Positions 6,193-63,046 of a DNA stretch of 64,000 nt are shown here, in pieces. Source of the stretch: Liolophura sinensis (Eukaryota; Mollusca; Polyplacophora; Chitonida; Chitonidae); assembly GCF_032854445.1 (NCBI RefSeq), contig NC_088295.1, positions 498,501-562,500 on the forward strand, read 5' to 3'. The notes under the pieces are model-generated. The model ran no database searches and was not told where the DNA came from. It was given only the letters and a program-made list of their open reading frames with translations. The stretch's first letter is position 1. Every line of letters begins with the position of its first letter. The translations under genes were made by a program, and so were the position numbers.

Positions 6193-6312
6193 TTATCCCA
6201 GAATTGCAATCAGCAGGCTTTTGTAGTCTCCGCTTGTATCACCTCTAATGGCGTCTGCTAACGTCACAGAATACGTGCCTTTGTAAGCCAGTCTGATTTC
6301 TTCCATGTCAAC
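6193..6312 (-). CDS. Annexin exon 9 (end of repeat 4, C-terminus, residues 275-313, stop)
   Basis: 120 nt encoding VDMEEIRLAYKGTYSVTLAD and a C-terminus with GDTSGDYKSLLIAILG, then TAA. This is the standard annexin ending (VDM..I...Y....L...I.GDTSGDYxxLLxAxxG). D299 caps the fourth calcium site. Acceptor ctgttatag. Confidence 0.96.
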   Translation of the reverse strand, partial: VDMEEIRLAYKGTYSVTLADAIRGDTSGDYKSLLIAILG

Positions 6313-9300
6313 CTATAACAGAAAATAGATTACCACGTTTTATACACCTATCCAACATGTCAATTCCAGTGACGACATGTTCATCCCGATACAGTAATCG
6401 AGGCGTAGTAACTCCAGATGTTCAGTCCACAAGAAGAAAACCAATGATATTTGTAAACATGTACCTTCACGATAGCACGAAACTATTGCAGCAACATTAC
6501 CCTTTAACATAAATGAGAGTGACCGGATGCCAGTAGGAGTGTCATGGGAGGTATCAGATCAGGTCAGGTCAACACATACAACGGCAAGGATATTTTGGAC
6601 GGAATTTTTTTTCTGGTTTTCGGTCTGAAGCTGAAGAATGATATATAGTTGGTTGGCTCCAACACGGACTTCATGTGACCTTTCATCTTTCACCTTTGCA
6701 ATACGTATCGCAGTTGATAACGATGCCTGATGTTCTAATGTGGTTTGATGATCAGTTGCACCGGATGGGAAATGTCCCAAATGTGAGGAGGGTGCAGGCA
6801 AGTTAGGGTTAAATTACGATTTAAACTGACAATTCCGTACCGACATCAAGGTCACGGCCTGTCCCATGAATGACGAACCAATCGGACGAAACTTTACCTC
6901 ACTACGTGTAACGAGGATCCTCATAAGGTCTTGGTCACGTGTTCCCGGGCCAGCCATACACTTGTGTAACCGCTCTGCGAAGTACTGTCCAGAGTTTCGA
7001 CCTATTTTGACTGTAACCAAGACCACAAGCAAACATCAACTCTGAATTTTGGTTTAGAAGAGACAGCAAATATCAAAGGTTAATGTGAAGATTTAAATTG
7101 AGCTCACCCATAATCCACCTACACCACAGACTTGTGATCAGGTAAGCGATCTCACCCGATGTTACCCCTACACCACAGATTTCTGGTCAGGTAAGCGATC
7201 TCAACCGATGTTCCCCCTACACCACAGATTTGTGATCAGGTAAGCGATCTCATCCAATGTTCCCCTACACTACAGATTTGTGACCTGGTAAGCGATCTCA
7301 CCCAATGTTCCCCTACACTACAGATTTGTGACCAGGTAAGCGATCTCACCCCATGTTCACCCTTCACCACAGATTTGTGATCAGGTAAGCGATCTCACCC
7401 CATGTTACCCCTACACCACAGATTTCTGATCAGGTAAGCGATCTCAACCGATGTTCCCCCTACACCACAGATTTGTGATCAGGTAAGCGATCTCAACCGA
7501 TGTTCCCCACACACCACAGATTTGTAATCAGGTAAGCGATCTCACCCGATGTTACCCCTACTCCACAGATTTCTGATCAGGTAAGCGATCTCACCCCATG
7601 TTCCCCCTACTCCACAGATTTCTGATCATGTCAGCGACATCACTCGATGTTACCCCTACACCACAGATTTCTGATCAGGTAAGCGATCTCAATCGATGTT
7701 CCCCCTACTCAACAGATTTCTGATCAGGTAAGCGATCTTACCCGTTGTCCCCCTACACCACAGATTTCTGATCAGGTAAGCGATCTCACCCGATGTTCCC
7801 CCTTCACCACAGATCTGTGACCTGGTAAGCGATCTCACCCCATGTTCACCCTTCACCACAGATTTGTGATCAGGTAAGCGATCTCACCCCATGTTACCCC
7901 TACACCACAGATTTCTGATCAGGTAAGCGATCTCAACCGATGTTCCCCCTACACCACAGATTTGTGATCAGGTAAGCGATCTCAACCGATGTTCCCCACA
8001 CACCACAGATTTGTAATCAGGTAAGCGATCTCACCCGATGTTACCCCTACTCCACAGATTTCTGATCAGGTAAGCGATCTCACCCCATGTTCCCCCTACT
8101 CCACAGATTTCTGATCATGTCAGCGACATCACTCGATGTTACCCCTACACCACAGATTTCTGATCAGGTAAGCGATCTCAATCGATGTTCCCCCTACTCA
8201 ACAGATTTCTGATCACGTAAGCGATCTTACCCGTTGTCCCCCTACACCACAGATTTCTGATCAGGTAAGCGATCTCACCCGATGTTCCCCCTTCACCACA
8301 GATCTGTGACCTGGTAAGCGATCTCACCCGATGTTCACCCTTCACCACAGATTTGTGATCAGGTAAGCGATCTCACCCGATGTTACCCCTACTCCACAGA
8401 TTTCTGATCAGGTAAGCGATCTCAACCGATGTTCCCCCTACACCACAGATTTGCGATCAGGTAAGCGATCTCAACCGATGTTCCCCATACACCACAGATT
8501 TCTGATCAGGTAGGCGATCTCACCCGATGTTCCCCATACACGTCAAATTTTTGCTCAAGTAAGCGATCTCACCAGATGTTCCCTCTGCACCACAGATTTG
8601 TGATCAGATAAGCGATCTCACCCGATGTTTCCCCTACAACACAGATTTCTGATCAGGTGAGCGATCTCACCCGATGTTCCCCCCACACCACAGATTTATG
8701 ACCAGGTAAGCGATCTCACCCATTGTCCCCCTACACCATAGATTTATGATCAGGTCAGCGATCACGCCCGATGTTCCCCATACACCACAGATTTATGACC
8801 AGGTAAGCGATCTCGCCCGTTGTCCCCCTATACCACAGATTTGTGATCAGGTAAGTGATCTCACCCGATGTTCTCCTACACATCAAATTTTTGCTCAAGT
8901 AAGCGATCTTACCCGATGTTCCCTCTGCACCACAGATTTGCGATCAGGTAAACGATCTCACCCCATGTTCCCCCTACACCACAGATTTCTGATCAGGTAA
9001 GCGATCTCACCCGTTGTCCCCCTACACCACAGATTTGTGACCTGGTAAGCGATCTCACCCCATGTTCCCCCTACTCCACAGATTTCTGATCAGATAAGCA
9101 ATCTCACCTGATGTTCACCCTACACTACGGATTTGTGATCAGGTAAGCGATCTCACCCGATGTTCCCCCTTCACCACAGATCTGTGACCTGGTAAGCGAT
9201 CTCACCCCATGTTCACCCTTCACCACAGATTTGTGATCAGGTAAGCGATCTCACCCCATGTTACCCCTACACCACAGATTTCTAATCACGTAAGCGATCT

Positions 9301-12300
9301 CACCCGATGTTCCCCCTTCACCACAGATCTGTGACCTGGTAAGCGATCTCAACCGATGTTCCCCATACACCACAGATTTGTGATCAGGTGAGTGATCTCA
9401 CCCGATGTTACCCCTACACCACAGATTTCTGATCATGTCAGCGATCTCACTCGATGTTAACCCTACACCACAGATTTCTGATCAGGTAAGCGATCTCAAC
9501 CGTTGTTCCCCCTACACCACAGATTTCTGATCAGGTCAGCGATCTCAACCGATGTTCCCCACACACCACAGATTTCTGATCAGGTAGGCGATCTCACCCG
9601 ATGTTCCCCATACACGTCAAATTTTTCCTCAAGTAAGCAATCTCACCAGATGTTCCCTCTGCACCACAGTTTTGTGATCAGATAAGCGATCTCACCCGAT
9701 GTTTCCCCTACAACACAGATTTCTGATCAGGTGAGCGATCTCACCCGATCTTCCCCCCACACCACAGATTTATGACCAGGTAAGCGATCTCACCCATTGT
9801 CCCCCTACACCATAGATTTATGATCAGGTCAGCGATCACGCCCGATGCTCCCCATACACCACAGATTTATGACCAGGTAAGCGATCTCACCCGATGTCCC
9901 CCTATACCACAGATTTGTGATAAGGTAAGTGATCTCACCCGATGTTCTCCTACACATCAAATTTTTGCTCAAGTAAGCGATCTTACCCGATGTTCCCTCT
10001 GCACCACAGATTTGCGATCAGGTAAACGATCTCACCCCATGTTCCCCCTACACCACAGATTTCTGATCAGGTAAGCGATCTCACCCGCTGTCCCCCTTCA
10101 CCACAGATTTGTGACCTGGTAAGCGATCTCACCCCATGTTCACCCTACTCCACAGATTTCTGATCAGATAAGCAATCTCACCAGATATTCCCCCTGCACT
10201 ACGGATTTGTGATCAGGTAAGCGATCTCAACCGATGTTCCCCCTACACCACAGATTTCTGATCAGGTCAGCGATCTCACCCAATGTTCCCCCCACACCAC
10301 AGATTTAAGACCAGGTAAGCGATCTCACCCGTTGTCCCCCTACACCATAGATTTATGACCAGGTAAGCGATCTCACCCGTTGTCCCCCTATACCAAAGAT
10401 TTGTGATCAGGTAAGCGATCTCACCCGATGTTCCCCTACACATCAAAATTTTGCTCAAGTGAGCGATCTTACCCGATGTTCCCTCTGCACCACAGATTTG
10501 TGATCAGGTAAACGATCTCACCCCATGTTCTCCTACACTACAGATTTCTGATCAGGTAAGCGATCTCACCCAATGTTCCCCCTTACAGAACAGATTTCTG
10601 ATCAGGTGAGTGATCTCCCCCACCTCCACCAGAGATCTGTTCTCATGTAAGCGATCTCACTGAATCTTCCCCATACACCACAGATTTGTGACCTGGTAAG
10701 CGAGCTCATCCGATGTTCCCCTACACTACAGATTTGTGACCTGGTAAGCGATCTCATCCAATGTTCCCCTACACCACAGATTTATGACCTGGTAAGCGAT
10801 CTCATCCAATGTTCCCCTACACTACAGATTTGTGACCTGGTAAGCGATCTCACCCAATGTTCCCCCTTACAGAACAGATTTCTGATCAGGTGAGTGATCT
10901 CCCCCACCTCCACCAGAGATCTGTTCTCATGTAAGCGATCTCACTGAATCTTCCCCATACACCACAGATTTATGACCAGGTAAGCGAGCTCATCCAATGT
11001 TCCCCTACACTACAGATTTGTGACCAGGTAAGCGATCTCATCCAATATTCCCCTACACTACAGATTTCTGATCAGGTAAGCGATCTCACCCAATGTTCCC
11101 CCTTACAGAACAGATTTCTGATCAGGTGAGTGATCTCCCCCACCTCCACCAGAGATCTGTTCTCATGTAAGCGATCTCACTGAATCTTCCCCATACACCA
11201 CAGATTTATGACCAGGTAAGCGAGCTCATCCAATGTTCCCCTACACTACAGATTTGTGACCAGGTAAGCGATCTCATCCAATATTCCCCTACACTACAGA
11301 TTTCTGATCAGGTAAGCGATCTCACCCAATGTTCCCCCTTACAGAACAGATTTCTGATCAGGTGAGTGATCTCCCCCACCTCCACCAGAGATCTGTTCTC
11401 ATGTAAGCGATCTCACTGAATCTTCCCCATACACCACAGATTTGTGACCTGGTAAGCGAGCTCATCCGATGTTCCCCTACACTACAGATTTGTGACCTGG
11501 TAAGCGATCTCATCCAATGTTCCCCTACACCACAGATTTATGACCTGGTAAGCGATCTCATCCAATGTTCCCCTACACTACAGATTTGTGACCTGGTAAG
11601 CGATCTCACCCAATGTTCCCCTACACTACAGATTTGTGACCAGGTAAGCGATCTCATCCGATGTTCCCCTACACTACAGATTTGTGACCAGGTAAGCGAT
11701 CTCACCCAATGTTCCCCTACACTACAGATTTGTGACCTGGTAAGCGATCTCACCCAATGTTCCCGTACATCACAAATTTGTTCTGATGTAAGCGATGTCA
11801 CCCAATGTTCCGTTTACACCACAGATATCTGCTAAGGTCATCGAGGTCACACGATGTTCCTCTTACACAGACTTGTACTGATGTAAGTGAGCTTACCCAA
11901 TGCCCCCACCCCCCACCCAAACCCCACTACACCACACGTTTGTGCTTCGGTAAGCGAGCTCACCTATGTCCAGGTAAGCTTCCTTGAGATCGCCGCTTGT
12001 TTCCGATTCGATGGCTTGCTCGATCTCATGACCAGCCACTCTCTTGTAAGCTTCGATGGTCGCCTTCAGCTGATGAAAGCTCCGATGACAGAGAATGTCT
12101 GTGAACACTGTCTCGTCCGTACCCAATCGTTTTTCTCCAGCCTACACATAGAGAATTAGAAATAACTACAGAGACACGCATACAAGGATCAAGTGATTAG
12201 GGTTTAATGTCGTACTTCACAATTTTCAGCCATATGATGACGAAGGAGTCCTTATAGTGCCTGTAATGCACCCCCTTGTTGCAGGGCGGGTGTTCACCCT

Positions 12301-15300
12301 CCTTTTATCTAGTGCTTCTTCGCTGAGACGACTTACCGAATGCACGTAAGCGGCCATACCCGAGCAATTATACTGATACTAGTCAACCAGCCGTGTCGCT
12401 ATCCCTTAAACTGGTGAACGCCAAGTGAGGAAGCTACAACTTCCTCTTTAAGATCTTAAATATTTGACCCTGGATCTACTGCCCCCGAAGTGGACACCCT
12501 ACCAGCTGAGCCATCGGGGCCGGTTCAGAACTGCATGGGATGAGATAAGTAACCACATATACATGCATACAGGGATGAAGGCGGCCTGATCAGAACTGTA
12601 TGGGGTGATACAGGTAACCACACATACATACAGAGGCCCCAAATCAGAACTCGGTGGGATGAGATAAGTAACTACATACAGGTATATATACACGGATCAT
12701 GGCGTTCCCATCAAAACGGTATGGGATGAAATAAATAACCACATACGGGGATCATGGCGTTCCCATCAAAACGGTATGGGATGACATAAATAACCACATA
12801 CGGGGATCATGGCGTTCCCATCAAAACTGTATGGGATGACATAAATAGCCACATACGGGGATCATGGCGTTCCCATCAAAACTGTATGGGATGACATAAA
12901 TAACCACATACGGGGATCATGGCGTTCCCATCAAAACTGTATGGGATGAAATAAATAACCACATACGGGGATAATGGCGTTCCCATCAAAACGGTATGGG
13001 ATGACATAAATAGCTACATACGGGGATCATGGCGTTCCCATCAAAATTGTATGGGATGACATAAATAGCCACATACGGGGATCATGGCGTTCCCATCAAA
13101 ACTGTATGGGATGAAATAAATAACCACATACGGGGATAATGGCGTTCCCATCAAAACGGTATGGGATGACATAAATAGCTACATACGGGGATCATGGCGT
13201 TCCCATCAAAATTGTATGGGATGACATAAATAGCCACATACGGGGATCATCGTGTTCTGATCAAAACTGTATGGGATGACATAAATAACCACATTCGGGG
13301 ATCATGGCGTTCCCATCAAAACTGTATGGGATGAAATAAATAACCACATACGGGGATAATGGCGTTCCCATCAAAACGGTATGGGATGACATAAATAACC
13401 ACATACGGGGATAATGGCGTTCCCATCAAAACGGTATGGGATGACATAAATAGCTACATACGGGGATCATGGCGTTCCCATCAAAATTGTATGGGATGAA
13501 ATAAATAACCACATACGGGGATAATGGCGTTCCCATCAAAACTGTATGGGATGACATAAATAACCACATACGGGGATAATGGCGTTCCCATCAAAACTGT
13601 ATGGGATGACATAAATAACCACATTCGGGGATCAAGGAGGCCTGATCAAAATTGAACGGGAATCTTGGGATGCGATAAATAAAGACGGTGCTGTAAGCGT
13701 GAGACTACATGTAAGCTTAAGGCTATAGATATAGGCTTAAAGCTAGATACAAGCTTCAGGCTAGATACAGGCCTAAGCTTAAGACTAGATGGAAACTTAA
13801 GACTGAAGTTATTATTTTCTCCACACATGAACCATTACCGTAATGACAGTCAACATGCTAAAATATGGTTACAGAATGCTCTGTGTAAAATAGTTGCATT
13901 ATCTAAGGGACAAAGTATACACTAACGCTATATAACCGCCTAGCATCGGCGTCCGCACGTGGAGCATCGGCAGTTTTTGTCTCTTCCCGAGAACCAGTGC
14001 AGAGTGTTAGGAGAAGCTCCCGGAAATCTCCACTCGTCTCTGATCTGATGTCAGCCTCCAGCTCCACTGAATAGGCTAGGCAAAGGAGAAAGGTTGAAGG
14101 TTAGCCTTTGGGCTCGCATGACTGAGCAAACCATAAAACTATATAATGTTCAAGTGAGGTGATACGTTCAAAAACTGATCTCGACCAAAATAAAGTAGAT
14201 TAACATCGTCATACACAGATATTATTCTCAGATATTCAGATATTATCCATGTGAAATCTAAAACTTTGAGTACAACATCACGGTGATGAAATGTGTCTTC
14301 AGCTTCCACCGTTACCAGTGTGCATGAAAACATTTCTACTCTATATACCTGAATGGGTGTGACTATGAGAATGACAATAATAATAATCATGCTGTCATTA
14401 TTATTAAGTCTGTAGATGTTTACATGCGTATGATACAAAAGACATTCAGCTTACAGGGAAGTTGGATCTACGTGCAATGTGCCTGCTTGTTGCAGGATGG
14501 ATTTCCACGCTCTTTTATCTAATGCTGCTTCACTGAGATTTGATTTGATCTGATTGGTGTTTTATGCCGTACTTAAGAGCTTCGCTGAGATGACTTACAG
14601 AAGGCAAGTCAGGTGCCCCACCCGAGCAATTATACTGATATGGATTTACCAGCTGTTGCACTATCCACTTGAACGCCAAGCGATGATTCTACAGGTATGA
14701 CCCAGCCCAGGATTAACCCTTGATCTACCGTCCTTAAAGCGGGCGCTCTTCCGGCCGAACCATCGGGGCAGGTCAAGTAAACCGTTTCAGCTTTGATTAT
14801 TCATCATCATCGAGGTGGATCTTCGCCATTTTCTCACCTGCCTTGTAAGCTGCCTTTATAGCTGCAATTTCTGCGTTCTTTCTCGTCCCCAGAATCTCTA
14901 CTAATATTCTCTCCTTTGTTCCTAACCTCTGAAGGTAAAAAAGAAATATGTGCACACCTATAATAGTCAACCGATTTATAACGTATGTGGCGAAGAGGCG
15001 TGGCTTAAACTCCATGTACCTAGATCTAGACAGTTGTATATAATAGGTTTCACTGCACGAATATTCCTAACAAAGTGATTCATCTGAACAATTCATTCTA
15101 ACAACATGTGCATGCGTAAACATCTTTAACACATGTTCAACTTACCATCACAGGTCTGTTCACCTTTGGTCAGCTTCTCTTTGCAGCTCCGTTCAGCTTC
15201 TCTTCACAGCTCTGATCAGCTTCTCGTCACAGTTCTGTTCACCTCAGTTCAACTTACCATCATAGCTCTTTTCACCTCTGTTCAGCTTACTTTCACAGCT

Positions 15301-18300
15301 CTGTTCACTTCTGTTTAACTTACCTCTGTTCACCTCTGTTCAGCTTACTTTCATATCTCTGTTCACCTCTGCTCAACTTACTTTCACAGCTCTGTTCACT
15401 TCTGTTTAACTTACCTCTGTTCACCTCTGTTCAGCTTACTTTCATATCTCTGTTCACCTCTGCTCAACTTACTTTCACAGCTCTGTTCACTTCTGTTTAA
15501 CTTACCTCTGTTCACCTCTGCTCAGCTTACTTTCATATCTCTGTTCACCTCTGTTCAGCCTACCTTCTTAGCTCTCTTCTCTGTTCAACTTACCATCATA
15601 GCTCTGTTCACCTCTGTTCAGCTTACCTTCATGGTTCTGTTCACCTCTGTTCAGCTTACTTTCATATCTCTGTTCACCTCTGTTCAGCCTACCTTCTTAG
15701 CTCTGTTCTCTGTTCAACTTACCATCATAGCTCTGTTCACCTCTGTTCAGCTTACCTTCATGGTTCTGTTCACCTCTGTCCAGCTTACTTTCATATTTCT
15801 TTTCACCTCTGTTGAGCTTACCTTCTTAACTCTGATCTCTGTTCAGCTTACTTTTATAGCTCTGTTCACCTTACCTTCATAGCTCTGTTCACCTCTGGTC
15901 AGCTTACCTACATAGCTCAGTTCACCTGTGTTCAGCTTACTTTCATAGCTCTGTTCACCTCTGTTAAGCTTACTTTCATAGCTCTGTTCACCTCTGGTTA
16001 GCTTACCTTTACAGCTCTGTTCACCTCTGGTCAACTTACCAACATAGCTCTGTTCACATCTGTTCAACTTACATTCACAGCTCCGTTCACCTCTGTTCAG
16101 CTTACTTTCATATCTCTTTTCACCTCTGTTCAGCCTACCTTCTTAGCTCTGATCTGTGTTCACCTTACTTTCACAGCTCTGTTCACCTCTTTTCACCTTA
16201 CTTTCATAGCTCTGTTCACCTCTGGTCAGCTTACCTACATAGCTCTGTTCACCTCTGTTCAGCTTACTTTCATAGCTCTGTTCACCTCTATTCAGCTCAC
16301 ATTCATAGATCTCTTCATCTCTGTTCAGCTTACCTTCATAGCTCTCTTCACCTCTGTTCAGCTTACTTTTATAGCTCTGTTCACCACTGTTCAGCTTATT
16401 TTCACAGCTCTGTTCAACTTACCTTCATAGCTCTCTTCACCTCTGTTCAGCTTCTCTTCACAGGTCTGTTCACCTCTGGTCAGTTCACCTTCATAGCTCT
16501 GTTCACCCCTGTTCAACTTACTTTCACAGCTCTGTTCACCTCTGGTCAGCTTACCTTCACAGCTCTGTTCACCTCTGGTCAGCTTACCTTCACAGCTCTG
16601 TTTGGCTCTTTTTTGCTTACCTTTTAGCTCCGTTCAGCTTGTGTTCATAAACCTGTTCAGATCTTTTCAGCATACCTTCATAGCTCTGTTCAGCTCTTGG
16701 GCGTCATATTCCGCGGGGGACAAGAACATAGCCAAGACCGCCTTCTCAAAATCCCCTCCAAGGTCAGCTTTTAAGTCAGCTTCCAGGTTCTGAGAAAAAC
16801 GGCGAGGGAATTAGATATAATAAACTGTAGTGCCTGACTCAAGGTATCGAGACTAGTTCGAGTGTTACCGGCTACCACTGACCATTGTAAGCTTGCTTGA
16901 ACAGTAAGCCTAGTCCGTTCGTATTAGGTTCATGTTTCTGTCCATTAAATAACCATTTGGAATATTTCTGGACAGGTGAAGATTACTAAAGTTACCATTA
17001 ACATCACTGTACTTATTTTGCCCAATCCTGCTAAAAAGATTCATTAAAATACAACACTACAACGAAGAATATGATTAAAAATAATAATGAAAATTATGAA
17101 ATTTTTTCACTTTTTCATTTTTGAGGCTTAGGTCTCAAAATTACCCCTTTATTTTATGGATAATTTCTTTGAATCACCAGAAATGTTCCACAATGACGTA
17201 TACGTTGAATTTGGCTTTATGACGGGACCGGCTATTAGCATGCCAGTATTGTCTGCATGTCAGTATTGTGTGCATGCCAGTGCTGTCTGCATGCCAGTAT
17301 TGTCTGCATGCCATTATTGTGTGCATGCCAGTGCTGTCTGCATGCCAGTATTGTCTGTATGCCAGTATTGTCTGCATGCCAGTATTGTCTGCATGCTAGC
17401 ATTGTCTGCATGCTAGCATTGTCTGCATGCCACTGCTGTTTGCATGCCAGTGCTGTTTGCATGCCAGTATTGTCTGTATGCCAGTATTGTCTGTATGCCA
17501 GTATTGTCTGCATGCCAGTATTGTCTGTATGCCACTACTGTCTGCATGCCAATAATGCCGGCATGCCAGTATTGCCTGCATGCTAGTACTGCCTGCATGC
17601 TAGTAGTGCCTGCATGCCAGTATTGCCGGCGTGCCAGTATTGCCGGCATGTCATCGTTGTCTGCGTGCCAGTATTGCCGGCATGCCAGTATTGCCTGCAT
17701 GCTACTAGTGCCAGCATGCCATCAATGTTTGCATGCCAGTATTGCCAGCATGCCATTTTTGCCTTTATGTCTGTATTGTCTCCATGCAAGGATTGCCGGC
17801 ATGTCAATATTGCCTGCATGCCATTATTGCCTAAATACTGTCTATACAATATACCGTATTACCTTGCCTGTGCTTTTCTGGTAAGCGGCTTTGATTTCCA
17901 GTCTCTGCTTGCTACAGTGACTGGTCAGCAGATTGATGATCACAGACTCGTTCGTACCTGAAACGTATAGTAGCTTTATTTACAAATGAGTGGATGAGCC
18001 AATATCTGCGCACACAGCTATATGTATACACTTCAGAGACGTACATCCGACACATTTAGCTGACAACAGTTAGATATGTTGATTGACAAAATGACAAAAT
18101 GCAAAAACCGAAGTCGTGTTTTGTAAAAAGCCTGAAGACAGCGAGCTGTATGTAGGCGATGTTGAGCTTGTCGCTGTAACAGTGGGTCTACCTATTTCGA
18201 TGGATGGGTGGGGATGTCTATTTGTCGCCTGTCCAGTGTGGCTCGGCCCGTTTATTCCGATTAAAAACCGAAGAAGGGGATATTCCAGTTAGTGTTGTCC

Positions 18301-21300
18301 ACTTCGGGACCGGTAGATCCAGGATCAATCCTTGATCGAGTCACACCTAAGACTTTAAAAGAGGAAGTTGAAACTTCCTCGCTTGGCGTTCAGCATCAAG
18401 GGGATAGTGCAACGACTGTTTGACCCGTATCAGTATAATGGCTCGGGCGGGGCGGCTTACTTGCCTTCGGTAAGTTGTCTCAGTGAGGCAGCACTAAATA
18501 AAAGAGCGGTGGAAATCCGTCCTGCAACAAGGAGGCACATTACACGTACATGCATCCTACTAATTCCTTCGTCGTCATATGACTGAAAAATTGTTGAGTG
18601 CGACGTTAAACCCCAAGCACTCACTCACTCACCCAGTTAGTGTTGATATTTCTCCAGAATAAGATTAAATCAAGGTGAATGAATGATGACTAGCGTCAGG
18701 CTGTTCATGAAGTGTAATGATAATCGTAATCACTGCCCAGTACCGTGTAGCCGGTAGCACTGCCCAATACCGTGCAGCCGGTAGCACTGCCCAATACCGT
18801 GCAGCCGGTAGCACTGCCCAATACCGTGCAGCCGGTAGCACTGCCCAATACCGTATAGCCGGTACCACAACCCAATACCGTGCAGCCGGTACCACAGCCC
18901 AATACCGTATAGGAGGCCTATATATGATCTGCTTCGTCTGATATCTCAGTGATATCTAAATACTGCCTATCTAATTAAAATACTGAAAGTTATTGGTGTG
19001 GCTCATTAATAAGAACTACTTTGTTTGAAAAGTAGGCCTACATATTTTTTATGAATTATTACCTCAGGCGAGGCTGCCAGAATATTATACATGAAGGACT
19101 AAAACGGCAACCGCTGCTGACTTTGGCCTCTGAACGTCGAGCAGGAAAAAAAAAATCGCTTGAAATCCCATCTATGTATTATCTTCATCACTGTGAACAG
19201 ATCATACCATCCTTTATAAACGTGTGTTTGCAAAAACTAATATAACTAACCAATATCTGGTAGTCACTCTGGAAAGAATCGTAGGCTACTCTATGTCTCT
19301 TATCAGGATGATAAAAAGCTAATTATCCCCATAAAGGCGATCCCGGTTCAACGCCCATCGTGGATTCTTTTGATTTATTATGTGTATCGTGTCACTTGGT
19401 AATGCACTGACATGCATACAACGTACATGTAGTTGTCCTGGCTGGGGTCTTCATGATGAATGAGTCAGGCAGACCTGGATGTATGACATGTATAGAGCGT
19501 AGCCTGTATAAGTGTATATGTCAGCGTGATTACTCCTGGTTAAAGCAGCTTTCAGCATACAATGTGGTCTCTCCACCGTGTCCCTGAGAGTGCTTGAGAT
19601 TTCCATCACTTCCTCAGTGATCATAATCAGGACACCAGTTGTGACACCAACAGGGTAGGCCCTATACATGTCATATATCCAGGTCTGCCTTACTCATTCG
19701 TCATGAAGACCCCAGCCATGACAACTACATGTACAATATATGCATGTCGTTGTATTGTCAAGTGTTAATTCGGTATACACGACCGAGGTCGACAGGGATA
19801 AGTGCCTCGCATATGTATGCTGATGTTTATATGCGGTTATTATCCAGTTGTGTGTATACAGCCTACAAAGGCACTATTGATCTCTGGTCTGAACAAAGAG
19901 ACATGTGTCCGTATCACTTACCCCAACCTCGTATAGCCTTGTCCAATTGCTGGGCAGAAGTATCCGCGTTGAACGAAGCGGCAGCTTTGATCGTGCCCTA
20001 TAGTAACATAGGTTCAGGCGTTGTAACAGGTTTAGTTCACGAGAAGCACGATAACAGTTTCAGGTCACGAGAAGCATTACGATAGATTCAGTTCACGAGA
20101 AGCATTATAACAGTTTCAGGTTATGAGAACCATTATTACAAGTTCAGTTCATAAGAAGCATTGTAAGAGTTTCAGTTCACGACAAGTATAAAAACAGTTT
20201 CAGTTCAAGAGAAGCAGTGTAACAGTTCACGAGAAGCATGATAACAGTTTCAGTTCACGAGAAGCATTATAAAAGGTTCAGTTCTTGAGAAGCATTCTAA
20301 CAGCTTTAGTTCACGAGAGTGAGTGAGTGAGTGCTTGGGGTTTAACGTCGTACTCTTAGTTCACGAGAAGGATTATCACAGGATCAATTTATGAGAAGCA
20401 TTTTCAGAGGTTTTGATTATTATTATAAAAGCTTCAGTTCATGAGAAGTAGTATAACAGTTTCATTCCACCAGACGTATTGTAACACTTTTAGTTCATGA
20501 GAAGAACTGTAACAGTTTCAGTTCGCGAGAAGCATTATAACAGTTTCAGATCACGAGAAGCATTACAACAAGTTTAGTTCACTAGAAACATTATACCAAT
20601 TTCATTTCACGAGAAGCATTATAACAAGTTGCTTTCACTGGAAGAATTACCACAGGTTCAATTCACGAGAAGCACTGCAATAGGTTCAGTTCATGAAAAG
20701 CATTATAAAAGTTTCATTTCATGAGAAGCCTTATAAAAGTTTCAGTCCACCAGAGACATAGTAACATCTTCAGTTCATGAGAAACATTATAAAAGTTCCC
20801 GCTCATGAGAAACACTATAAAATGTTAAGTTCACGAGAAGCACTGTAACAGTTTCAAACCAAGAGAAGCATTATAAAAGGTTCATCATACTAAAAGCATT
20901 ATCATAGGTTCAATTCAGGAAAAGCATTATAATAGTTTGAATTCAAGAGAAGCATAATAAAAGTTTCATTTCACGAGAGGCATTATAACAGTTTCAGTTC
21001 ACGAGAAGCATTGTAACAGTTTCAGTTTACGAGAAGCACTGTAAGTTTTAGTTCAAGAGAAGCATTGTAACAGTTTCAGTTCACGAGAAACACTTTAAAA
21101 TATTAAGAGGCATTATAATAGGTTCAGTTCAAGAGAAGCATAATAAAAGTTTCAGTTCTTAGGAAGCATTGTAAGAGTTTCACTTCACGAGAAGCATTGT
21201 AACAGTTTCCGTTCAAAAGAAGCACTGTAACAGTTTCAGTTCACGAGAGGCATTCAGTTCACGAGAAGCTTTGTAACAGTTTCAGTTCACCAGAAGCATT

Positions 21301-23681
21301 GTAACAGTTTCAGTTCACGAGAAGCATTGTAAGTTTAGTTCAATAGAAGCATCATAACAGTTTCATTTCAAGAGAAGCACCGTAACAGTTTCACTTCACG
21401 AGAGGCATTGTAACAGTTTCAATTCACGAGAAGCAGGGAAACAGTTTTAGTTCACGAGAGGTATTGTAATAGCTTCATTTAACGAGAAGCATTACAACAG
21501 TTTCAGTTCACGAAAGGCATTTTAACAGTTTCAGTTCACGAGAAGCATTATAACAGTTTCAGTTCAGGAGAAATGTTTTTTTTTTTTGATTGGAGTTTTA
21601 CGCCGTACTCAAGAATATTTCACTTATACGACGGCGGCCAGCATTATGGTGGGTGGAAACCGGGCAGAGCCCGGGGGAAACCCACGACCATCCGTAGGTT
21701 GCTGACAGACCTTCTCACATACGGCCGGAGAGGAAGCCAGCATGAGCTGGACTTGAACTCACAGCGACCGCATTGGTGAGAGACTCCTGGGTCATTACGC
21801 TGCGCTAGCGCTTTAACCGACTGAGCCACGGAGGCCCCGAGAAATGTTTTTAGTTTGTTTCTACACCCTATCTCCATATGGCACTTTTGTATCGTAACTT
21901 TACCGCCATAATTATTACGAAACTCATATTAGATAGTAAGTACATGTATATTTCCAGATATTTTTACCATTAACGTCAGCCCATGCAAACTCTAGGAAAA
22001 GTAGGGAGTACCGCACTACTTCTGAAAATTATCTGTAGCACAGGTTGACCCCTTGGGTTACTGTTCAAATTGTGTGAATGCCAATAATCTTATTATACAA
22101 AGTTTTTCATGGTCCGTTAAAGAAGTTATCTGTTAAATTGTGGAATGAGCTGTTAATTACGTTTGTTGTTTGTGATAAACATTTGGATATAATCCTGAAA
22201 GATCGAAAAAAAGGTTGACAGATTGCACATTATTTTATGTGTCTTTGCCATATTTGTGCCATTGAGATACAACTATACAATGTAAGGACGAAAACATGTC
22301 TTGTATTACGATATGTCGCCTTGATATGTTACCACATATGGCAATGGCACAAATAATTTCCATGCTCAATCTAACCAAACAAATAAAAATGGTAACGAAA
22401 AGAAAATGTCCAACATTGTCTACAATCTTACAGTATATCATAATATGGTGCATTCTCTTTAAAGTTATGTCATAATGAGGTGGGGCCAGGTCCTCCATTA
22501 CAGACAGAAGAACTGACAGATCCTTTATGGGTGGAGAAGAACAATGAATTTCACTAGAAGACAACTGGTCTCTTAGTTAAATAAGAGAGAAAAATAAAAA
22601 TAGAAAAAGAGCAATTGGCCCATTTCACAGCTCTTGGGCTCTAGTTTACGCTTGGTTTGGATTAAACGTCGTCTTGGATATTACTTCCATTTTCTGCTAA
22701 AGGCGACATACACGTATTTATATTGCTGCGTAATTTTATCGTAACAGTCTATGGACACCAGGTCCCAACCAGTCACAATCTACCGACACCAGGCCGCCAC
22801 CAGTCACAGTCTAAGGACACAAGCCCCCACCAGTCACAGTCTACGGACACCACGCCCCAACCAGTCACGGTCTACGGACACTAGGCCCCCAACCAGTCAC
22901 AGTCTACGGACACCAGACGCCAGCCAGTCATTTTGTACGGACACCAAGCGGGGTACGCGTATATACATCTTCAAGTTAATCTGCATTATGACGTGATGTT
23001 CAAAACACCTGCACACATGTACACACTGACTTGGCCCATGTGGTTTCGAACGCCACGCCCCTCGTTTGGCGTTCAGCATGAAGGGGATAGTGCAACGACT
23101 GGTTGACCCGTATCACTATAAATGGCTCTGGCAGGGCTGCTCGCTTGCCTTCGTTAAGTCGTCTCAGTGAAGCAGCACTAGATAAAAGAGCGGGGGAAAT
23201 CCCTCCTGCAACAAGGAGGCACATGCACTCTAAGGATTCCTTCGTCGTCATATGACTGAAAAATTGTCAGGTATGACGTTAAACCCCAAGCACTCACTCA
23301 CTCGAACGCCACGTCCAGTAAGCGAGCCATGACATTCGCATTACTGCCTGGCTGTGAGGAATCACTAGCAACCATTCCTCATGCTCAGCCAGGCCCATGT
23401 CGACAGGAGTGCAGGCATGGTCAATATTTCTCCACGCTACTGGGTTACTAAGCCGCGTGAACGTCTACTGAATACGTCAAAGATTAGCTCTAGGCTTATA
23501 TGTGTGTAAGGTTTATCGGTACTAAGGTCCTTAGTTCCTCTCCACTGGCTACCGATATACACGGATACAGTCCGCTTGATGTGTCAGTGTAATAGCCTGT
23601 ACTAAATACCTACAACTCGGGTTGTCTTTCTAAGGATAACAATGCTGAGGTAACACCAGACTGTTGTACACTTACCGGCAT
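6193..23681 (-). CDS. Annexin, complete gene of nine coding exons (313 residues)
   Basis: Annexins are cytosolic proteins that bind acidic phospholipid membranes in a calcium-dependent way. Joining 23681-23676, 19997-19922, 17957-17863, 16789-16676, 14928-14838, 14075-13927, 12141-11964, 7010-6898 and 6312-6193 gives 942 nt, 313 codons plus TAA, with AG/GT at every junction. Four annexin repeats are visible (about 13-84, 85-158, 168-243, 244-313). In each, the GT of the calcium loop is followed after exactly 38 residues by an acid (T29/D68, T101/E140, T185/E224, T260/D299), the family spacing. Loops 1 (GWGT) and 4 (GPGT) keep the first glycine; loops 2 and 3 have Arg there (R98, R182) and loop 2 also has Lys for Asp (K102), so calcium binding there is probably weak. 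The N-terminal tail is very short (about 12 residues). Family call is secure; the subfamily cannot be assigned by eye. Confidence 0.95.
6313..6897. other. Annexin intron 8, unique sequence
   Basis: About 585 bp between exons 8 and 9. No tandem array or mobile element is visible. Confidence 0.6.
6898..7010 (-). CDS. Annexin exon 8 (start of repeat 4, residues 237-274)
   Basis: 113 nt encoding KIGRNSGQYFAERLHKCM then GPGTRDQDLMRILVTRSE. It joins exon 7 through split Val237, giving the family string DIV..RN...FAERL. The loop GPGT at 257-260 keeps both glycines. The acceptor is ggttacag and the donor GAG/gtaaag, phase 0. Confidence 0.94.
7105..11960. repeat. 48-49-bp minisatellite filling annexin intron 7, about 98 copies
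   Basis: Units contain ggtaagcgatctcacc, then gttccccctacaccacag and atttgtgatca. On the minus (transcribed) strand the core is cgggtgagatcgcttacc. It matches the true donor of exon 7 (gacataG/gtgagctcgcttacc) and the following intron bases cacaaacgtgtggtgtag. The array begins at that donor and stops about 100 bp short of exon 8. Blocks of several units are themselves repeated (see findings). Confidence 0.96.
11964..12141 (-). CDS. Annexin exon 7 (repeat 3, residues 178-237)
   Basis: 178 nt encoding AGEKRLGTDETVFTDILCHR, the helix SFHQLKATIEAY, and IEQAIESETSGDLKEAYLDI. This is a complete repeat 3 with the typical AGEK.xGTDE entry. The acceptor is tgtgtag and the donor GACATAG/gtgagc (phase 1). 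The donor sequence is the apparent seed of the long 49-bp array that fills the next intron. Confidence 0.95.
12199..12522 (-). mobile_element. SINE family A, old diverged copy, inverted
   Basis: On the minus strand: tRNA-like head with box A-like gctcagctggtaggg, then gaggaagt, cgcttggcgttcac, gctcgggtatggccg and a tail with cgacattaaacccta. It lies in annexin intron 6 and directly abuts the 55-bp array. More diverged than the copies at 18298 or 54536. Confidence 0.82.
12523..13670. repeat. 55-bp minisatellite in annexin intron 6, about 20 copies
   Basis: Core ggatcatggcgttcccatca, then aaactgtatgggatgac and ataaataaccacatac. Middle copies (12700-13640) are nearly identical while the first three (12523-12700) and last are diverged. 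Confidence 0.95.
13671..13926. other. Rest of annexin intron 6 next to exon 6
   Basis: Contains a short degenerate repeat of about 20-25 bp (13695-13800, aagcttaaggctaga-like), then unique sequence to the donor of exon 6. Confidence 0.55.
13927..14075 (-). CDS. Annexin exon 6 (end of repeat 2 and linker, residues 128-177)
   Basis: 149 nt encoding AYSVELEADIRSETSGDFRE, a leucine-rich helix, then a charged linker ending ADARRLYS. I use the acceptor tttgcctag (exon edge 14075) rather than the nearer ttcag at 14067. Only the former gives the 38-residue spacing between T101 and E140. Donor gttagt, phase 0. Confidence 0.9.
14076..14454. other. Annexin intron 5, unique part
   Basis: About 380 bp of AT-rich unique sequence between exon 6 and the SINE; contains a short run of taataataat near 14380. 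Confidence 0.55.
14455..14775 (-). mobile_element. SINE family A, old copy, inverted, with a tiny SINE B tail inserted
   Basis: Diverged family A copy in annexin intron 5. It is interrupted at 14540-14578 by 39 bp of the family B tail (gattggtgttttatgccgta), flanked by a 13-bp duplication with one mismatch, gcttcactgagat / gcttcgctgagat (14527-14539 and 14579-14591). Confidence 0.85.
14838..14928 (-). CDS. Annexin exon 5 (repeat 2, residues 98-128)
   Basis: 91 nt encoding RLGTKERILVEILGTRKN and IKAAYKA. The loop RLGTKE replaces the usual GxGTDE, so this calcium site looks degenerate. The acceptor is ccttcag and the donor gtgaga, phase 1. Reading through the donor gives a stop within 15 codons. 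Confidence 0.93.
15140..16675. repeat. 33-bp minisatellite in annexin intron 4, about 46 copies
   Basis: Plus-strand core agctctgttcacctctgttc then agcttactttcat. On the transcribed strand each unit reads gaacagagctatgaagg followed by taagctg. This is a copy of the last bases of exon 4 plus its donor (AACAGAGCTATGAAG/gtatgctg). The array touches the exon 4 donor and runs nearly to exon 5. Around 15306-15540 a sub-block of about 90 bp is repeated three times. Confidence 0.96.
16676..16789 (-). CDS. Annexin exon 4 (end of repeat 1, linker to repeat 2, residues 60-97)
   Basis: 114 nt, 38 codons. It begins NLEADLKADLGGDFEK, with D68 capping the repeat-1 calcium site, and ends with SPAEYDAQELNRAMK, the conserved PxxYDAxEL.xAMK linker. 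The acceptor is ttctcag and the donor AAG/gtatgc (phase 0). The last 16 bases plus donor are the seed of the minisatellite in the next intron. Confidence 0.95.
16790..17235. other. Annexin intron 3, unique part near exon 4
   Basis: About 445 bp, AT-rich near 17040-17150, no repeat or coding sign seen. Confidence 0.55.
17236..17840. repeat. 17-bp minisatellite in annexin intron 3, about 35 copies
   Basis: Core gcatgccagtattgtct. Because three units make 51 bp, all frames stay open for long stretches on both strands (MPVLSACQYC-like). It begins about 25-30 bp past the exon 3 donor. Half of the copies carry tgccggc or tgcctgc in place of tgtctgc. Confidence 0.94.
17863..17957 (-). CDS. Annexin exon 3 (repeat 1, residues 28-59)
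   Basis: 95 nt encoding the calcium loop GTNE and helices with LLTSHCSKQRLEIKAAYQ. It joins exon 2 through the split Gly28. The acceptor is tttcag and the donor is gtaata after AAG (phase 0). A 17-bp minisatellite starts a few tens of bases past the donor. Confidence 0.93.
17958..18284. other. Annexin intron 2, unique part near exon 3
   Basis: No gene, array or mobile element seen in these 330 bp. Confidence 0.5.
18298..18632 (+). mobile_element. SINE family A, 5'-truncated copy with perfect 13-bp target duplication
   Basis: Starts within the tRNA-like head (cttcgggaccggtagatcc), continues through gaggaagttgaaacttcct, gcgttcagcatcaagggg, ggaggcacattacacg and cgtcgtcatatgac. It ends cgttaaaccccaagcactcact. 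Flanked by ccagttagtgttg at 18285-18297 and 18633-18645, showing recent LINE-type insertion. It lies in annexin intron 2. Confidence 0.93.
18738..18912. repeat. 27-bp minisatellite, about 6.5 copies
   Basis: Units of gccggtagcactgcccaata plus ccgtgca, very similar to each other. In annexin intron 2. Confidence 0.93.
18913..19381. other. Annexin intron 2, unique stretch
   Basis: About 470 bp without visible features. Confidence 0.5.
19382..19780. mobile_element. Foldback / MITE-like element with about 105-bp inverted arms
   Basis: The left arm (about 19393-19497) and right arm (about 19658-19764) are inverted copies of each other. They share cacttg, catgcat, gtacatgtagttgtc, tggctggggtcttcatga and ggcagacctggat. 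The roughly 160-bp centre has no coding capacity. This is the architecture of a non-autonomous foldback DNA transposon; no target duplication was recognised. Confidence 0.8.
19922..19997 (-). CDS. Annexin exon 2 (residues 3-28, N-terminal tail and start of repeat 1)
   Basis: 76 nt reading GTIKAAASFNAD then SAQQLDKAIRGW and the first base of Gly28. The acceptor is ctatag and the donor gtaagt (phase 1). The NAD..A..L.KA.RGWGT pattern is the classic entry into annexin repeat 1. The neighbouring 28-bp minisatellite comes right up to the acceptor. Confidence 0.93.
20010..21570. repeat. 28-bp minisatellite in annexin intron 1, about 55 copies
   Basis: Core cagttcacgagaagcattat then aacagttt. The array starts within about 25 bp of the exon 2 acceptor. 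It is broken at 20319-20354 by a SINE A tail fragment and closed at 21570 by a full SINE B. Confidence 0.94.
20319..20354 (-). mobile_element. SINE A tail-only insertion (36 bp) with target duplication
   Basis: Only the 3' tail of family A is present (gtgcttggggtttaacgtcg plus gagtgagtga run). It is flanked by tttagttcacgaga (20305-20318) and cttagttcacgaga (20355-20368). Because the target is itself a tandem array, the flanking match could partly be array periodicity. Confidence 0.7.
21576..21836 (-). mobile_element. SINE family B, full-length, inverted
   Basis: On the minus strand: head with gcctccgtggctcagtcgg (box A) and gagttcaagtcc (box B). The body has ggcttcctctccggccg and the tail gagtacggcgtaaaactcca. 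Flanked by a duplication of gagaaatgttttt on both sides. Sits at the far end of the 28-bp array. Confidence 0.92.
21837..22744. other. Annexin intron 1, unique stretch
   Basis: About 900 bp. An open frame of 109 codons on the minus strand (22564-22235) shows hydrophobic segments but no recognisable family and lies in an intron. A segment at 22600-22670 (attggcccatttcacagctc) looks like dispersed repeat. Confidence 0.5.
22745..22950. repeat. 30-31-bp minisatellite, about 7 copies
   Basis: Core accagtcacagtctacggac followed by accaggcccc. In annexin intron 1. Confidence 0.92.
23058..23302 (+). mobile_element. SINE family A, 5'-truncated, with 11-bp target duplication
   Basis: Starts at cctcgtttggcgttcagcat and ends ccccaagcactcactcact. 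Flanked by cgaacgccacg at 23047-23057 and 23303-23313. In annexin intron 1, about 370 bp from exon 1. Confidence 0.92.
23676..23681 (-). CDS. Annexin coding exon 1 (start codon, 2 codons)
   Basis: The exon ends ATGCCG followed by the strong donor gtaagt. The two codons (Met-Pro) join in phase 0 to exon 2, which starts GTIKAAASFNAD, giving a typical short annexin N-terminus. I chose this ATG because it is immediately followed by a consensus donor and the reading frame and length then match the family. A different upstream first exon cannot be excluded without transcript data. Confidence 0.75.
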
Positions 23682-23820
23682 TCTGAGGCTGTTCTATCGG
23701 TACGTTGCAGTGACGGAGTTAAAATACCTGAACGGAAGTAGGTCAACCTGACACTTTCGTTCGGCTTGTTTCGGTGCTATCCGCTAGTCCAGAGAGACGC
23801 CTCTGCCGTAAACATCCTTC
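23682..23820 (-). other. Probable 5' untranslated part of annexin exon 1 and promoter-proximal region
   Basis: The sequence upstream (on the minus strand) of the annexin start codon is unique and GC-richer than its surroundings, in keeping with a 5' leader. The transcription start cannot be placed by eye, and I see no clear TATA box. The upper limit given is approximate. Confidence 0.45.
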
Positions 23821-24614
23821 ATTTTCCCCATTACGCTACAAAAAATTTAGACCCTATTCTAAACAGTTTTCATGTACCGGTACACCGGTTTTAACACTTA
23901 AATAAAATCAAAACAAACCCCCCAATATTGAAACATCAGCTATTATAACACGTGTTTACATGTGTAATTAAAGTCTTAGAGTTTATTACTCTAACTTCCT
24001 GAATACAGTAATTTTATATTCACTCCAGGTATCATAGGCTAATATCTGCATGCCCTCTTCAGTGTATAAACTTTTGACATACATTTCACGCAGTTACTAG
24101 AAAGCCACAACAACTGTCCACCAGCTGGGAAAGATTCAGTCAAAAAGCTCCCAGCATGTGTCTCCATTTGAAGTAAGCAGATAGAACAACCTTTACAGAC
24201 ATGACTGTACAGACATGGCCGTTGTAGGCTACGCCTACACCTCAGAACACATGAGGTGTATATGGGGACACGGTGTATACTCCATGCACATCTCAGGGTG
24301 AGATATAGATTAGGCGTACAGATCATCTATATTATCTGAGGTGTGCTGTACCTCAGGAACACCTCAGCCATATGCCTATAGACATACATCAGATGTACCT
24401 CAGGAATTACAAACAGTTTCGGAATATGAGATAATGTACCTTAGGTACACCTCAGCAACACTAAGAAACTCAAAGACAAAGAAGACATACCGGTACCCGA
24501 TCAGAAACAGCTCAGAAAGTAAGAAAGTTGTTTCTGAATAATTAAGTGATTATGTACCTCGCCACTTTCAATGTTTTAAAATAACAGATAACAGATTTAG
24601 ACTGTTTACTTTAA
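23821..24614. other. Intergenic stretch upstream of the annexin gene
   Basis: About 800 bp without genes. Repeated short motifs cacctcag / acctcagg occur at 24230-24460, too irregular to call an array. It would contain the annexin promoter if exon 1 is correct. Confidence 0.5.
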
Positions 24615-25165
24615 ACAAAATGGCTCTCCCGCCGAAGTGGGAAGGTCTGCCAGTAACCTGCGGTTGGTCGTAGGTTTCCCCAGGGCTCTGCCCGGTTTCC
24701 TCCCACCATAATACTGGCCGCTGTCGTATAAGTCGACCGGCCCGGATAGCACAGTTGGTAGAGCGTCCGTTTCGGGACCGGTAGATCCAGGATCAATCCA
24801 TGATCGAGTCACACCTAAGACTTTAAAAGAGGAAGTTCTAACTTCCTCGCTTGGCGTTCAGCATCAAGGGGATAGTGCAATGACTGGTTGACCCGTATCA
24901 GTATAATGGCTCGGGTGGGGCAGATTACTTGCCTTCGGTAAGTCGTCTCAGTGAAGCAGCACTAAATAAAAGAGCGGTGGAAATCCGTCCTGCTACAAGG
25001 AGGCACATTACACGTACATGCACCCTAATGATTCCTTCGTCGTCATATGACTGAAAAATTGTTGAGTACGACGTTAAACCCCAAGCACTCACTCACTCGT
25101 ATATGTCAAATGTTCTTGAGTAGGCCTACGGCGTAAAACACCAATCAAACAAATAAATAAATCAA
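24615..25165 (+). mobile_element. SINE family B interrupted by a SINE family A (nested pair)
   Basis: The family B body runs 24615-24734 (gaaggtctgccagtaacctg ... gtcgtataagtc) and resumes at 25097-25165 (aaatgttcttgagta, gtaaaacaccaatcaaacaa). Between them is a complete family A copy. The B copy itself lacks its tRNA head. Confidence 0.92.
24735..25096 (+). mobile_element. SINE family A, full-length, inside a SINE B
   Basis: Complete copy with tRNA-like head: cggatagcacagttggtag (box A) and ggatcaatcc (box B-like). It ends aaccccaagcactcactcac. Target duplication tcgtataagtc / tcgtatatgtc at 24724-24734 and 25097-25107, 10 of 11 matching. Shows that family A was active after this B insertion. 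Confidence 0.93.
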
Positions 25166-25689
25166 ACAAAATGGTGACTACAACATCACAAGTTTTCATA
25201 CAAAAAAGTTTACTAAATAAATATTTGCCATTGTCTCACCATGTAATGACTTGTTATTCAGTATGCCATTAACGACAAATCACATAGGACAAATACATTA
25301 GCCCCCGATAATTTCAAGATGGCTGCCCACAGCAATGCACATATTTCAGGCTGTGAAGAAAATATCCAATTAAGCACTGACTAATGTCTCCTAGGGCACA
25401 ATTTGTCACATCTGCTGGCCGATGGCATAGTTCTAAATGGAACAGAAAAAGAGTAGCACTAAAGTTTGATCAACCAGCCAAAAAGCTTCACGTAAATGGT
25501 CATCATTGTTGTTGTTGTTGTTCTTCATTTACGATAGGCCTATCTGTAAATCTCAACTAGTGTGAACTAGTAAAGAACTGCACTTACAAACTTTCAACTT
25601 CACCTGTAATTTATACAGTAAATGTCTTCAGTGTTTTTAGCTTCTTTTCTATCCAAATATAAATGAAAACTGTGTTAAATGTGAGTCAC
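25166..25689. other. Intergenic unique stretch
   Basis: About 520 bp, AT-rich, with a short gttgttgttgttg run at 25508. Nothing else seen. Confidence 0.5.
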
Positions 25690-26195
25690 ATAAACCCAGG
25701 TATATGCATGTACCTTGTCCGTGGGCATATACCGGTACTTCAGCTATACCTCCAACTATGCCTAGTCTGTCCAGAGTACACCTCCACTGATGTATAATTT
25801 AGGTGTTACTGGATATATGTGTAGGCCTATCATATGTACATGCTCCATGGACATTAGGCCTACTGGGGATGCTAAATACCTACTAAATGTACTAAGGACA
25901 AATACTGGATGTACAGGCTTACTAAATGTAACAGGGGCATCACCGGATATATAGGCCTAGTGTATGTACCATGGACATTACTGGGTATGGTATATGCCTA
26001 CTAAATGTATCAGAGACATAAGAAGATATATAGGCCTACAACATGTACATGTGCCATGGACATTACTGGGTATACTATATGCCTACTAAATGTACCAGAT
26101 ACATTACCAGATATATAGGCCTAATAAATGTACCAGGGATGTAACTGGATATATAGGCCTCCTATATGTGCCAGGGACGCTACTGGATATACAGG

Positions 26196-26515
26196 TCTAT
26201 GAGTGGATGAGTGAAAGTTTTAACGTCGATTTCAACAATATTTCAGTTTTATCGCGACAATAAAACGTCAAGTAGTCAATCTACTACGAACAAGCCATTT
26301 ATTAGTCAGTCAAAAAAGGACATCAGAAGTCACATAACAAACACAGACGGTAGTTTAAAATCACAGCTTTCCTGCCATACCAATGACACAGAAAATCAAA
26401 AATAGTATCATTTTCTGCAGAATTTAAAAGTTCTGCAAGAGAGCTCACGTGATAAAAAGAATCTTGCGCAGGAGCAAAGTCGCAACAGTCCAGTAATATG
26501 TGCTTGACACACGCC
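26196..26515. mobile_element. Insertion in the 38-bp array, probable degraded interspersed element
   Basis: About 320 bp unrelated to the array, starting gagtggatgagtgaaagttt then aacgtcgatttcaacaatat. A start of gagtgagtga plus aacgtc and caatatttcag resembles the tail end of SINE-like repeats in molluscs. I found no target duplication and no open frame with homology. Confidence 0.5.
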
Positions 26516-28162: not shown

Positions 28163-28345
28163 TACTAAATGTGTTTACCTCTCATTGCTCTGACACCCAC
28201 ATCTCAGTTGTGGGTTCACACCCAGCCTTGGACAGGGAAATTGTTGATTCCCCTGCTCATTGCGGTCTCGGTGACAGTGGACATCTAAGAATGCTGACAG
28301 TCCAAAGTTCTTTGAAGACCACCTTCCACAAGCAGGTTAGTAGTG
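28163..28345. mobile_element. Insertion in the 38-bp array, possible tRNA-related fragment
   Basis: About 180 bp unrelated to the flanking units. It contains ttgtgggttcacacccag, similar to a tRNA B box, and cctgctcattgcggtct. Nature uncertain. Confidence 0.4.
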
Positions 28346-28590
28346 TCCTGATAAATAGGCCTATTATCAGGTATGGTGTATACCTACTAAATGTATTAGG
28401 GACATTACTGGAGATCTTGAGTACTGTATGTACCATGGACATTATTGAGTATGGTGTATGTCTACTAAATGTACCAGGGACATTCCTGGAGATACAGGCC
28501 TACTATATGTACCCTGGACATAACTGGATATACAGGCCTACTACAGGTACCATGAACATTACTGGAGATATTGGCCTACTGCATGTACCA

Positions 28591-29754: not shown

Positions 29755-30030
29755 ATCTGTGCTCATCTGTGACAGCAATACGAAAGCTAATATACAGCTT
29801 CTTTGTGACAGCTATATGAAAGCTAATATACAGCTTATCTGTGACAGTTACATGGATGCTAATATACAACTCATCTGTGACAGCTACATAAAAGCTAATA
29901 TATAGCTCATCTGTGACAGCTACATGGAAGCTAATATACAGCTTATCTGTGACAGCTACATGAAAGCTAATATACAGCTCATCTGTGACTGCTACATAGA
30001 GCTAATATACAGCTTATCTGTGACAGCTAC
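29755..30030. repeat. 36-bp minisatellite, about 7 copies
   Basis: Core atctgtgacagctacatg then aaagctaatatacagctt. Confidence 0.93.
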
Positions 30031-32880: not shown

Positions 32881-33029
32881 GGTACATACAGGGTAGAAAA
32901 GCTTGTTTTCACCTACAGTTTATAGTTTACACAGTTAAAATTCTACTGTGGCAGGTACAGCGACATTAAATGTCGGAAATTAAATGTAACTAAGCAAAAA
33001 TCCTACCATTAATCATGTAATGTACCAGT

Positions 33030-33275: not shown

Positions 33276-33341
33276 GTTTGATATCAACATGAACACTGAA
33301 AATCCTCACTACAGGTCCAAATAGAGCAAAACTCCGGTGCC

Positions 33342-63046
<29,705 letters not shown>

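Follow-up and report, generated by a model that had tools for sequence, protein, structure and literature searches.

The closest described counterparts of the arrays reported here are the mirages of amphioxus. In the sections of two reports consulted, these are minisatellite-like tandem duplications across the exon-intron boundary, 5' and 3', with units of 10-160 bp and AG or GT in many copies (PMC3087553, PMC3902484). The examples given there are Adh3 (Canestro et al. 2002, as cited) and the globins BflGb6 and BflGb9 (PMC3087553), and also PGBD5 and troponin C (PMC3902484). In the literature consulted, mirages have so far been a curiosity of these few amphioxus genes.

Related processes are known elsewhere. 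In potato RdRp, a local tandem duplication with splice-site bases has interrupted an exon with a new intron, and in fission yeast genes a repeated 24-bp AGGT exonic segment forms a small array whose copies are spanned by an intron (both from the consulted part of PMC4974935). Human VNTRs are enriched in subtelomeres (PMC7608644), and an intron of an abalone TSSK1-like gene carries a length-variable 27-bp minisatellite (PMC6905558); the consulted portions of these two papers mention no link to exon boundaries and no splice-site or exon content, respectively. The main text of a comparison of five chiton genomes, as accessed, is without the words "minisatellite", "satellite" and "tandem repeat" (PMC12005716), and no report of mollusc mirages appeared among the matches listed in our search, which covered titles and the beginnings of abstracts and left most subscription literature outside.

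We analyzed a 64-kb stretch of the chiton Liolophura sinensis (hereafter the window; C1:498501-562500, scaffold_1 of the assembly). A first-pass annotation, made from the sequence alone, had described intronic minisatellites in two genes as built from the neighboring splice sites and knew of no named system of this kind; amphioxus mirages, as presented in the consulted part of PMC3087553, are such arrays. As in amphioxus, chiton units span the boundary and contain exon bases (the donor of annexin exon e4, the acceptor of phospho-lyase exon w4, and the w5, w6 and w7 donors of a lyase paralogue), with the e7 donor, at 1 nt, as the exception. Both donors (9) and acceptors (3) are hit, and units in the clear arrays measure 31-140 bp, within the amphioxus range. 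Unlike the amphioxus cases, the host is not a cephalochordate, several arrays reach kilobases (the globin mirages have 3-6 units in the section consulted), and the arrays are known from the sequence of one assembly alone. With the potato and fission yeast cases, the latter a small array outside amphioxus, they share local tandem duplication that takes in splice-site bases, but the chiton copies lie within an existing intron. Unlike introner elements, they show no single sequence family common to many introns of the window and the paralogue. They resemble human subtelomeric VNTRs in the density of tandem repeats near a chromosome end, and the abalone repeat in being an intronic minisatellite of a mollusc. 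The phenomenon is real and well marked, and mirages, named in amphioxus, are now seen in a mollusc, in several of its genes.

The window and its two genes

The assembly was published under the name Liolophura japonica (PMC11068029), afterwards corrected to L. sinensis (PMC12441733); the sequence used here has 609,464,459 bases in 632 contigs. The consulted part of the assembly report records that scaffold_1 begins with a telomere, which places the window about 0.5 Mb from a chromosome end, and gives a HiFi coverage of 14x with a mean read of 8.3 kb, so that misassembly within long arrays is possible (PMC11068029). Tandem repeats make up 67.6% of the window and 43% of 30 kb of the lyase paralogue region. 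Their share is 9-13% in the other locus groups outside the paralogue and 9.7% (periods of at least 10) in a 169-kb sample around exons elsewhere in the genome.

Other repeats were also noted in the window. A long mix of GT-rich microsatellite and minisatellite occupies 40048-41197, in the w6-w7 intron of the phospho-lyase gene. Four copies of a dispersed element with a common open frame (VSAWGLTS...) lie on the minus strand near 54.8k, 25.0k, 23.25k and 18.6k. At 21590-21850 (minus strand) lies a SINE-like element, its head tRNA-like and its end A-rich, and pieces resembling it by translation occur near 34.0k and 1.2k.

Both genes lie on the minus strand; we reconstructed their models manually, setting splice sites by reading the sequence. 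The annexin gene was traced from exon e2 through the stop codon in e9 (6193..19997; exon 1 was not located), and a phospho-lyase-like class III aminotransferase gene from w1 through the stop codon in w9 (33342..63009; the 5' part before w1 was not located). Lyase exons w1-w9 and annexin exons e3-e9 splice in frame. Annexin e2 was read separately: a pattern search for the N-terminal annexin exon was without a match, and exon 2 was then recognised by reading. At the arrays the in-frame models use the outermost splice-site copy; alternative copies were no part of the modelling. Pfam confirms the predicted families (Aminotran_3, E=2.3e-70; Annexin, E=7e-91), and the finer name "phospho-lyase-like" remains putative. 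The exon numbering of the first-pass annotation agrees with these models.

Arrays at exon-intron boundaries

In the annexin gene, the last 22 nt of exon e4 (NLEADL...ELNRAMK; 16676..16789, minus strand) are repeated in the adjoining donor-side array (15170..16675, minus strand), whose 33-bp unit consists of exonic nucleotides plus the donor. TRF places this array at 15170-16636, and degenerate copies continue from there to the donor. The alignment of the donor to the array consensus takes in these 22 exonic nucleotides, with 54 of its 70 columns identical; the donor scored 52 in a uniform flank test, and 49 against its own intron compared with 20 for the best other intron. A still longer exonic stretch is copied at lyase exon w4 (ADCPDVYRG...LPTVYR; 42034..42242, minus strand), where the 73-bp unit of the acceptor-side array (42199..43895, minus strand) comprises the acceptor and 44 exonic nt, and the array itself extends into the exon. 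In the alignment, which takes in these 44 exonic nucleotides, 90 of 104 columns are identical, and the acceptor scored 52 in the uniform flank test and 56 against its own intron (best other intron, 23).

The first-pass annotation had named a third array of this type, at the donor of annexin exon e7 (AGEKRLGTDE...YLDI; 11964..12141, minus strand). Its 49-bp units run from the donor GGTGAG onward (7103..11963, minus strand; TRF limits 7103-11868), and 35 of 42 columns match the consensus, but the exonic part of the alignment is 1 nt, which indicates that the unit begins at the donor with little or no exon in it. An 8-nt resemblance, GGACATAG versus GAACATCG, is suggestive only as a sign of exon content. 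The e7 score depends on the test (25 versus 24 for other introns with 12 intronic nucleotides, 31 with 15), and exon content was therefore judged by the consensus alignment and not by flank scores. The description of a boundary-built array thus holds in full for e4 and w4; at e7 it holds for the donor.

Two further acceptors had been seen as the last unit of their array. Both arrays do lie close to the acceptor, and their exon content was not demonstrated. Upstream of annexin e2, which starts at 19997, a 28-bp array (20021..21572, minus strand) has its last unit about 20 nt before the AG; the acceptor region scored 50 against this array (shuffle maximum 24), in an upstream intron that is incomplete. 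Near the acceptor of lyase exon w8 (35342-35253), the degenerate 42-bp unit of an array at 35422..36359 (minus strand) stops some 31 nt short of the AG, and the match is weak (28 versus 27).

We applied one flank test throughout, in which 30 exonic plus 15 intronic nucleotides were compared with the junction's own flank of at most 1400 nt, at a cut-off score of 30; for consensus alignments in the window and paralogue, 60 nt were tested at each splice site. Three of the 30 junctions of the window's 15 complete introns reached the cut-off (the w4 acceptor and the e4 and e7 donors) and the other 27 fell below it, as compared with three of 15 paralogue junctions and eight of 169 genome-sample edges, seven of them clear. 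The total, 14 of 214 edges, compares with 0.075 expected from the flanks of other genes (8560 draws, maximum 33, fraction at or above 30 of 0.00035); for the 169 genome-sample edges the chance expectation was about 0.06. Own flanks read backwards scored at most 28. When exon ends were compared with their own and with other introns, 25 of 28 junctions did not exceed the best other intron. The annotation had posed the alternative that array consensus sequences match adjacent splice sites no more often than random introns do; instead, own flanks outscored other introns. Such a match to the own flank implies a local origin, not a preference for junctions.

The units differ from intron to intron. 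Among 1653 unit pairs from the window and paralogue, 14 exceeded the shuffled maximum of 23, and 13 of these lay within one intron or array cluster. The view of the first-pass annotation that no single spreading repeat is the source is borne out by this comparison, in which units were almost all unrelated between introns. The sole pair from different places joins the array at 45678-48498 with that at about 1705-1992, weakly (28 versus 23).

The lyase has a paralogue some 100 kb away, at roughly C1:429-462 kb; the two proteins are 45-76% identical over matched exons. Within the 60 nt tested, the paralogue's w5 donor array (102-bp unit) holds 38 exonic nt, its w6 donor array (41 bp) 31, and its w7 donor array (46 bp, more than 5 kb long) 40. 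These arrays sit at junctions other than those of the window lyase. Because the junctions differ and the proteins have diverged, the arrays of the two genes look, from their sequences, to have been born independently.

The paralogue has further peculiarities. A repeat-rich intron of 15.5 kb interrupts its exon w4 (C1:442582-458956, L082-L085), and the second half of that exon is doubled (w4b and w4c, about 0.8 kb apart, with good splice sites on both); the split may represent a gained intron, and w4b/w4c a possible alternative exon pair. Paralogue exon w6 (C1:440079) stops at the repeated donor, without the GIEYFNT that precedes YGGNP in the window copy, and a search of the paralogue for an EYFN-like motif found no separate piece.

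Cases elsewhere were sought in a genome sample of annexin, myosin and aminotransferase exons (169 edges, 169 kb), in which edges are the ends of family matches rather than confirmed splice sites and the sites of reported cases were read by eye. Further family exons at loci that were not cut out fall outside this sample, and three of 172 edges with flanks under 150 nt were left out of the flank test. A first pass over 73 loci flagged nine of 146 sides; those at L021, L079 and L011 did not stand inspection, and C7:27896741 was set aside as borderline (score 32, a single 15-nt copy). Donor arrays were found at C12:684214 (31-bp unit) and C12:686729 (66-bp unit), apparently in the same myosin gene, and at C8:10565028 (140-bp unit, about 113 exonic nt). 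Further donors are those at C11:2675303 (8-9 exonic nt) and, in an annexin, at C1:25211691 (about 15 exonic nt). Acceptors were hit at C2:5378501 (about 9 exonic nt) and at C4:1247172, with one acceptor copy on either side of another array. With the window and paralogue, clear cases fall on six scaffolds, in line with the earlier proposal that boundary-derived arrays have arisen repeatedly. Near the chromosome end the rate was six in 45 edges, as compared with eight in 169 elsewhere (Fisher P 0.08).

In the C4 case (C4:1247318-1248078, L075), the two myosin acceptor copies, with about 24 exonic nt, surround an unrelated 41-bp array, a layout that looks as if a minisatellite had arisen inside an older junction duplication.

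Proposed origin of the arrays

We consider it probable that these arrays are mirages, that is, minisatellites produced by local tandem duplication across an exon-intron boundary and tolerated when the surplus exon sequence comes to lie within the intron. In the units, coding sequence from the neighboring exon is attached to the splice site of that same exon, and the units differ from one intron to the next. The first unit would have come from a stretch of about 30-140 bp across the boundary that was duplicated locally in tandem. The exon was probably the source of the copies and the intron the recipient, since the duplicated stretches code for what we take to be family-conserved motifs, the AMK end of the annexin repeat and the PD-YRG of the lyase. 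Tolerance would follow if the first copy continues to serve as the true donor, or the last as the true acceptor, with the surplus exon piece spliced out; correct splicing and neutrality of the arrays are assumed here. Slippage or unequal exchange would later lengthen the row of intronic copies, as in other minisatellites. On this account the chiton, particularly near this chromosome end, makes many arrays, and those at splice sites would mainly be the fraction of a general process that happened to land on an edge. In a donor array the true site would be transcribed first, and in an acceptor array last, which may make acceptor arrays harder to tolerate. The surplus of donors among the clear junctions (9 to 3) fits such poorer tolerance, though it is not significant (two-sided P 0.146; 11 to 3 and P 0.057 when the e7 donor and the C7 case are added).

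A different reading is that splice junctions are favored birthplaces of minisatellites, for example through AGGT microhomology or a co-transcriptional event. To quantify what random landing alone would yield, we set the probability of an overlap of at least 8 exonic nt at 2(p-8)/(ancestral intron length + p - 1), where p is the duplication length. For the complete introns of the window and paralogue, with 37 arrays and with the paralogue w7 donor array excluded because it runs beyond the stretch examined, the model predicts 1.9-3.5 such arrays; four were seen, or five with the e7 donor (P 0.02-0.46), in agreement with random landing. The genome sample for this model kept 70 of 73 exon loci, dropping the window and paralogue loci (L013, L018, L025), and also left out loci L001-L008, arrays with periods below 10 and six of 92 exons outside the stretches. 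Here 1.62 exon-overlapping arrays were predicted and four were seen by TRF alone (P 0.08), six with the C2 and C11 cases shown by alignment (P 0.006), and seven with the two-copy duplication on C4 (P 0.001). Pooled, the prediction of 3.5-5.1 compares with a strict count of eight (P 0.03-0.14), a count of ten (P 0.003-0.03) and a broadest count of 12 (P 0.0003-0.006); the broader counts, which speak most for a preference, rest on more sensitive detection than the prediction does, so that their excess is inflated.

Word pairs were also counted across the whole genome. Pairs of the donor word AGGTAAGT at 20-50 bp (12-42 bases between) numbered 886 for 26,576 sites (3.33%), as compared with 704 for 29,085 sites (2.42%) for the reversed word, a rate ratio of 1.38 in the donor word's favor. 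For the acceptor word TTTTCAGG the ratio was only 1.15 (534 pairs for 40,785 sites; reversed word, 217 for 19,003). All four counts are far above the 9-42 pairs expected by chance, which indicates that tandem arrays are common; a few large arrays dominate the counts, and for this reason no P value is attached to the ratios. With GGTAAG at a spacing of 16 bp, the reversed control was the commoner one (252 versus 106), contrary to a preference for junctions.

Together, these observations indicate that much of the junction-array count can be put down to random landing, possibly with a moderate preference for edges. That junctions are favored birthplaces is a tentative reading that we regard as unlikely. 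We are doubtful, too, of its broad form, in which junctions, donors more strongly than acceptors, would be true hot spots for the birth of minisatellites in animals as distant from each other as amphioxus and chitons, with thousands of mirages per such genome. If that form were true, mirages would supply decoy splice sites, raw material for new introns and changes in exon length.

Function, intron creation and consequences

Many splice-site copies in the arrays are intact (GGTGAG occurs 53 times in the e7 intron, the donor 50 times in the examined part of the paralogue w7 intron and the acceptor 11 times in the w3-w4 intron), as would be expected if they served as decoy or regulatory splice elements that steer isoform choice or intron retention. 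Neutral arrays also keep such signals, however, the paralogue has its arrays at different positions, and regular splicing is reported as undisturbed in the consulted section on amphioxus (PMC3087553), so that a functional role is improbable. The AG|GT units and the interrupted exon w4 of the paralogue would suit intron creation, through duplication at AGGT sites (the Rogers model) or introner elements. The window exons, however, join in frame at ordinary sites with no sign of a new intron there, and the 1653-pair comparison argues against introners; we judge this reading very improbable. Chance resemblance or an assembly artefact, for which the high repeat load and the e2 and w8 matches (weak or without exon bases) might speak, is very unlikely, given scores far above the other-gene and reversed-flank controls and clear cases spread over six scaffolds.

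Mirages at 4-5% of sampled edges outside the window region, on six scaffolds, suggest a common outcome of active local tandem duplication. Such arrays are natural experiments on how the spliceosome chooses one true site among dozens of near-identical neighbors, and on whether arrays yield new introns. They also carry a warning for annotation, as exon positions around array-bearing introns may come out wrong in gene prediction and short-read assembly.

Two observations on HSP70 matches in the same genome may be added. Five HSP70 copies lie within about 67 kb (C10:18983545-19050453), each with a nearly full-length domain match in one open frame. A further HSP70 match, at C1:28756494-28757417, is listed with a 42,745-aa open frame, perhaps a stretch of N or another artefact.
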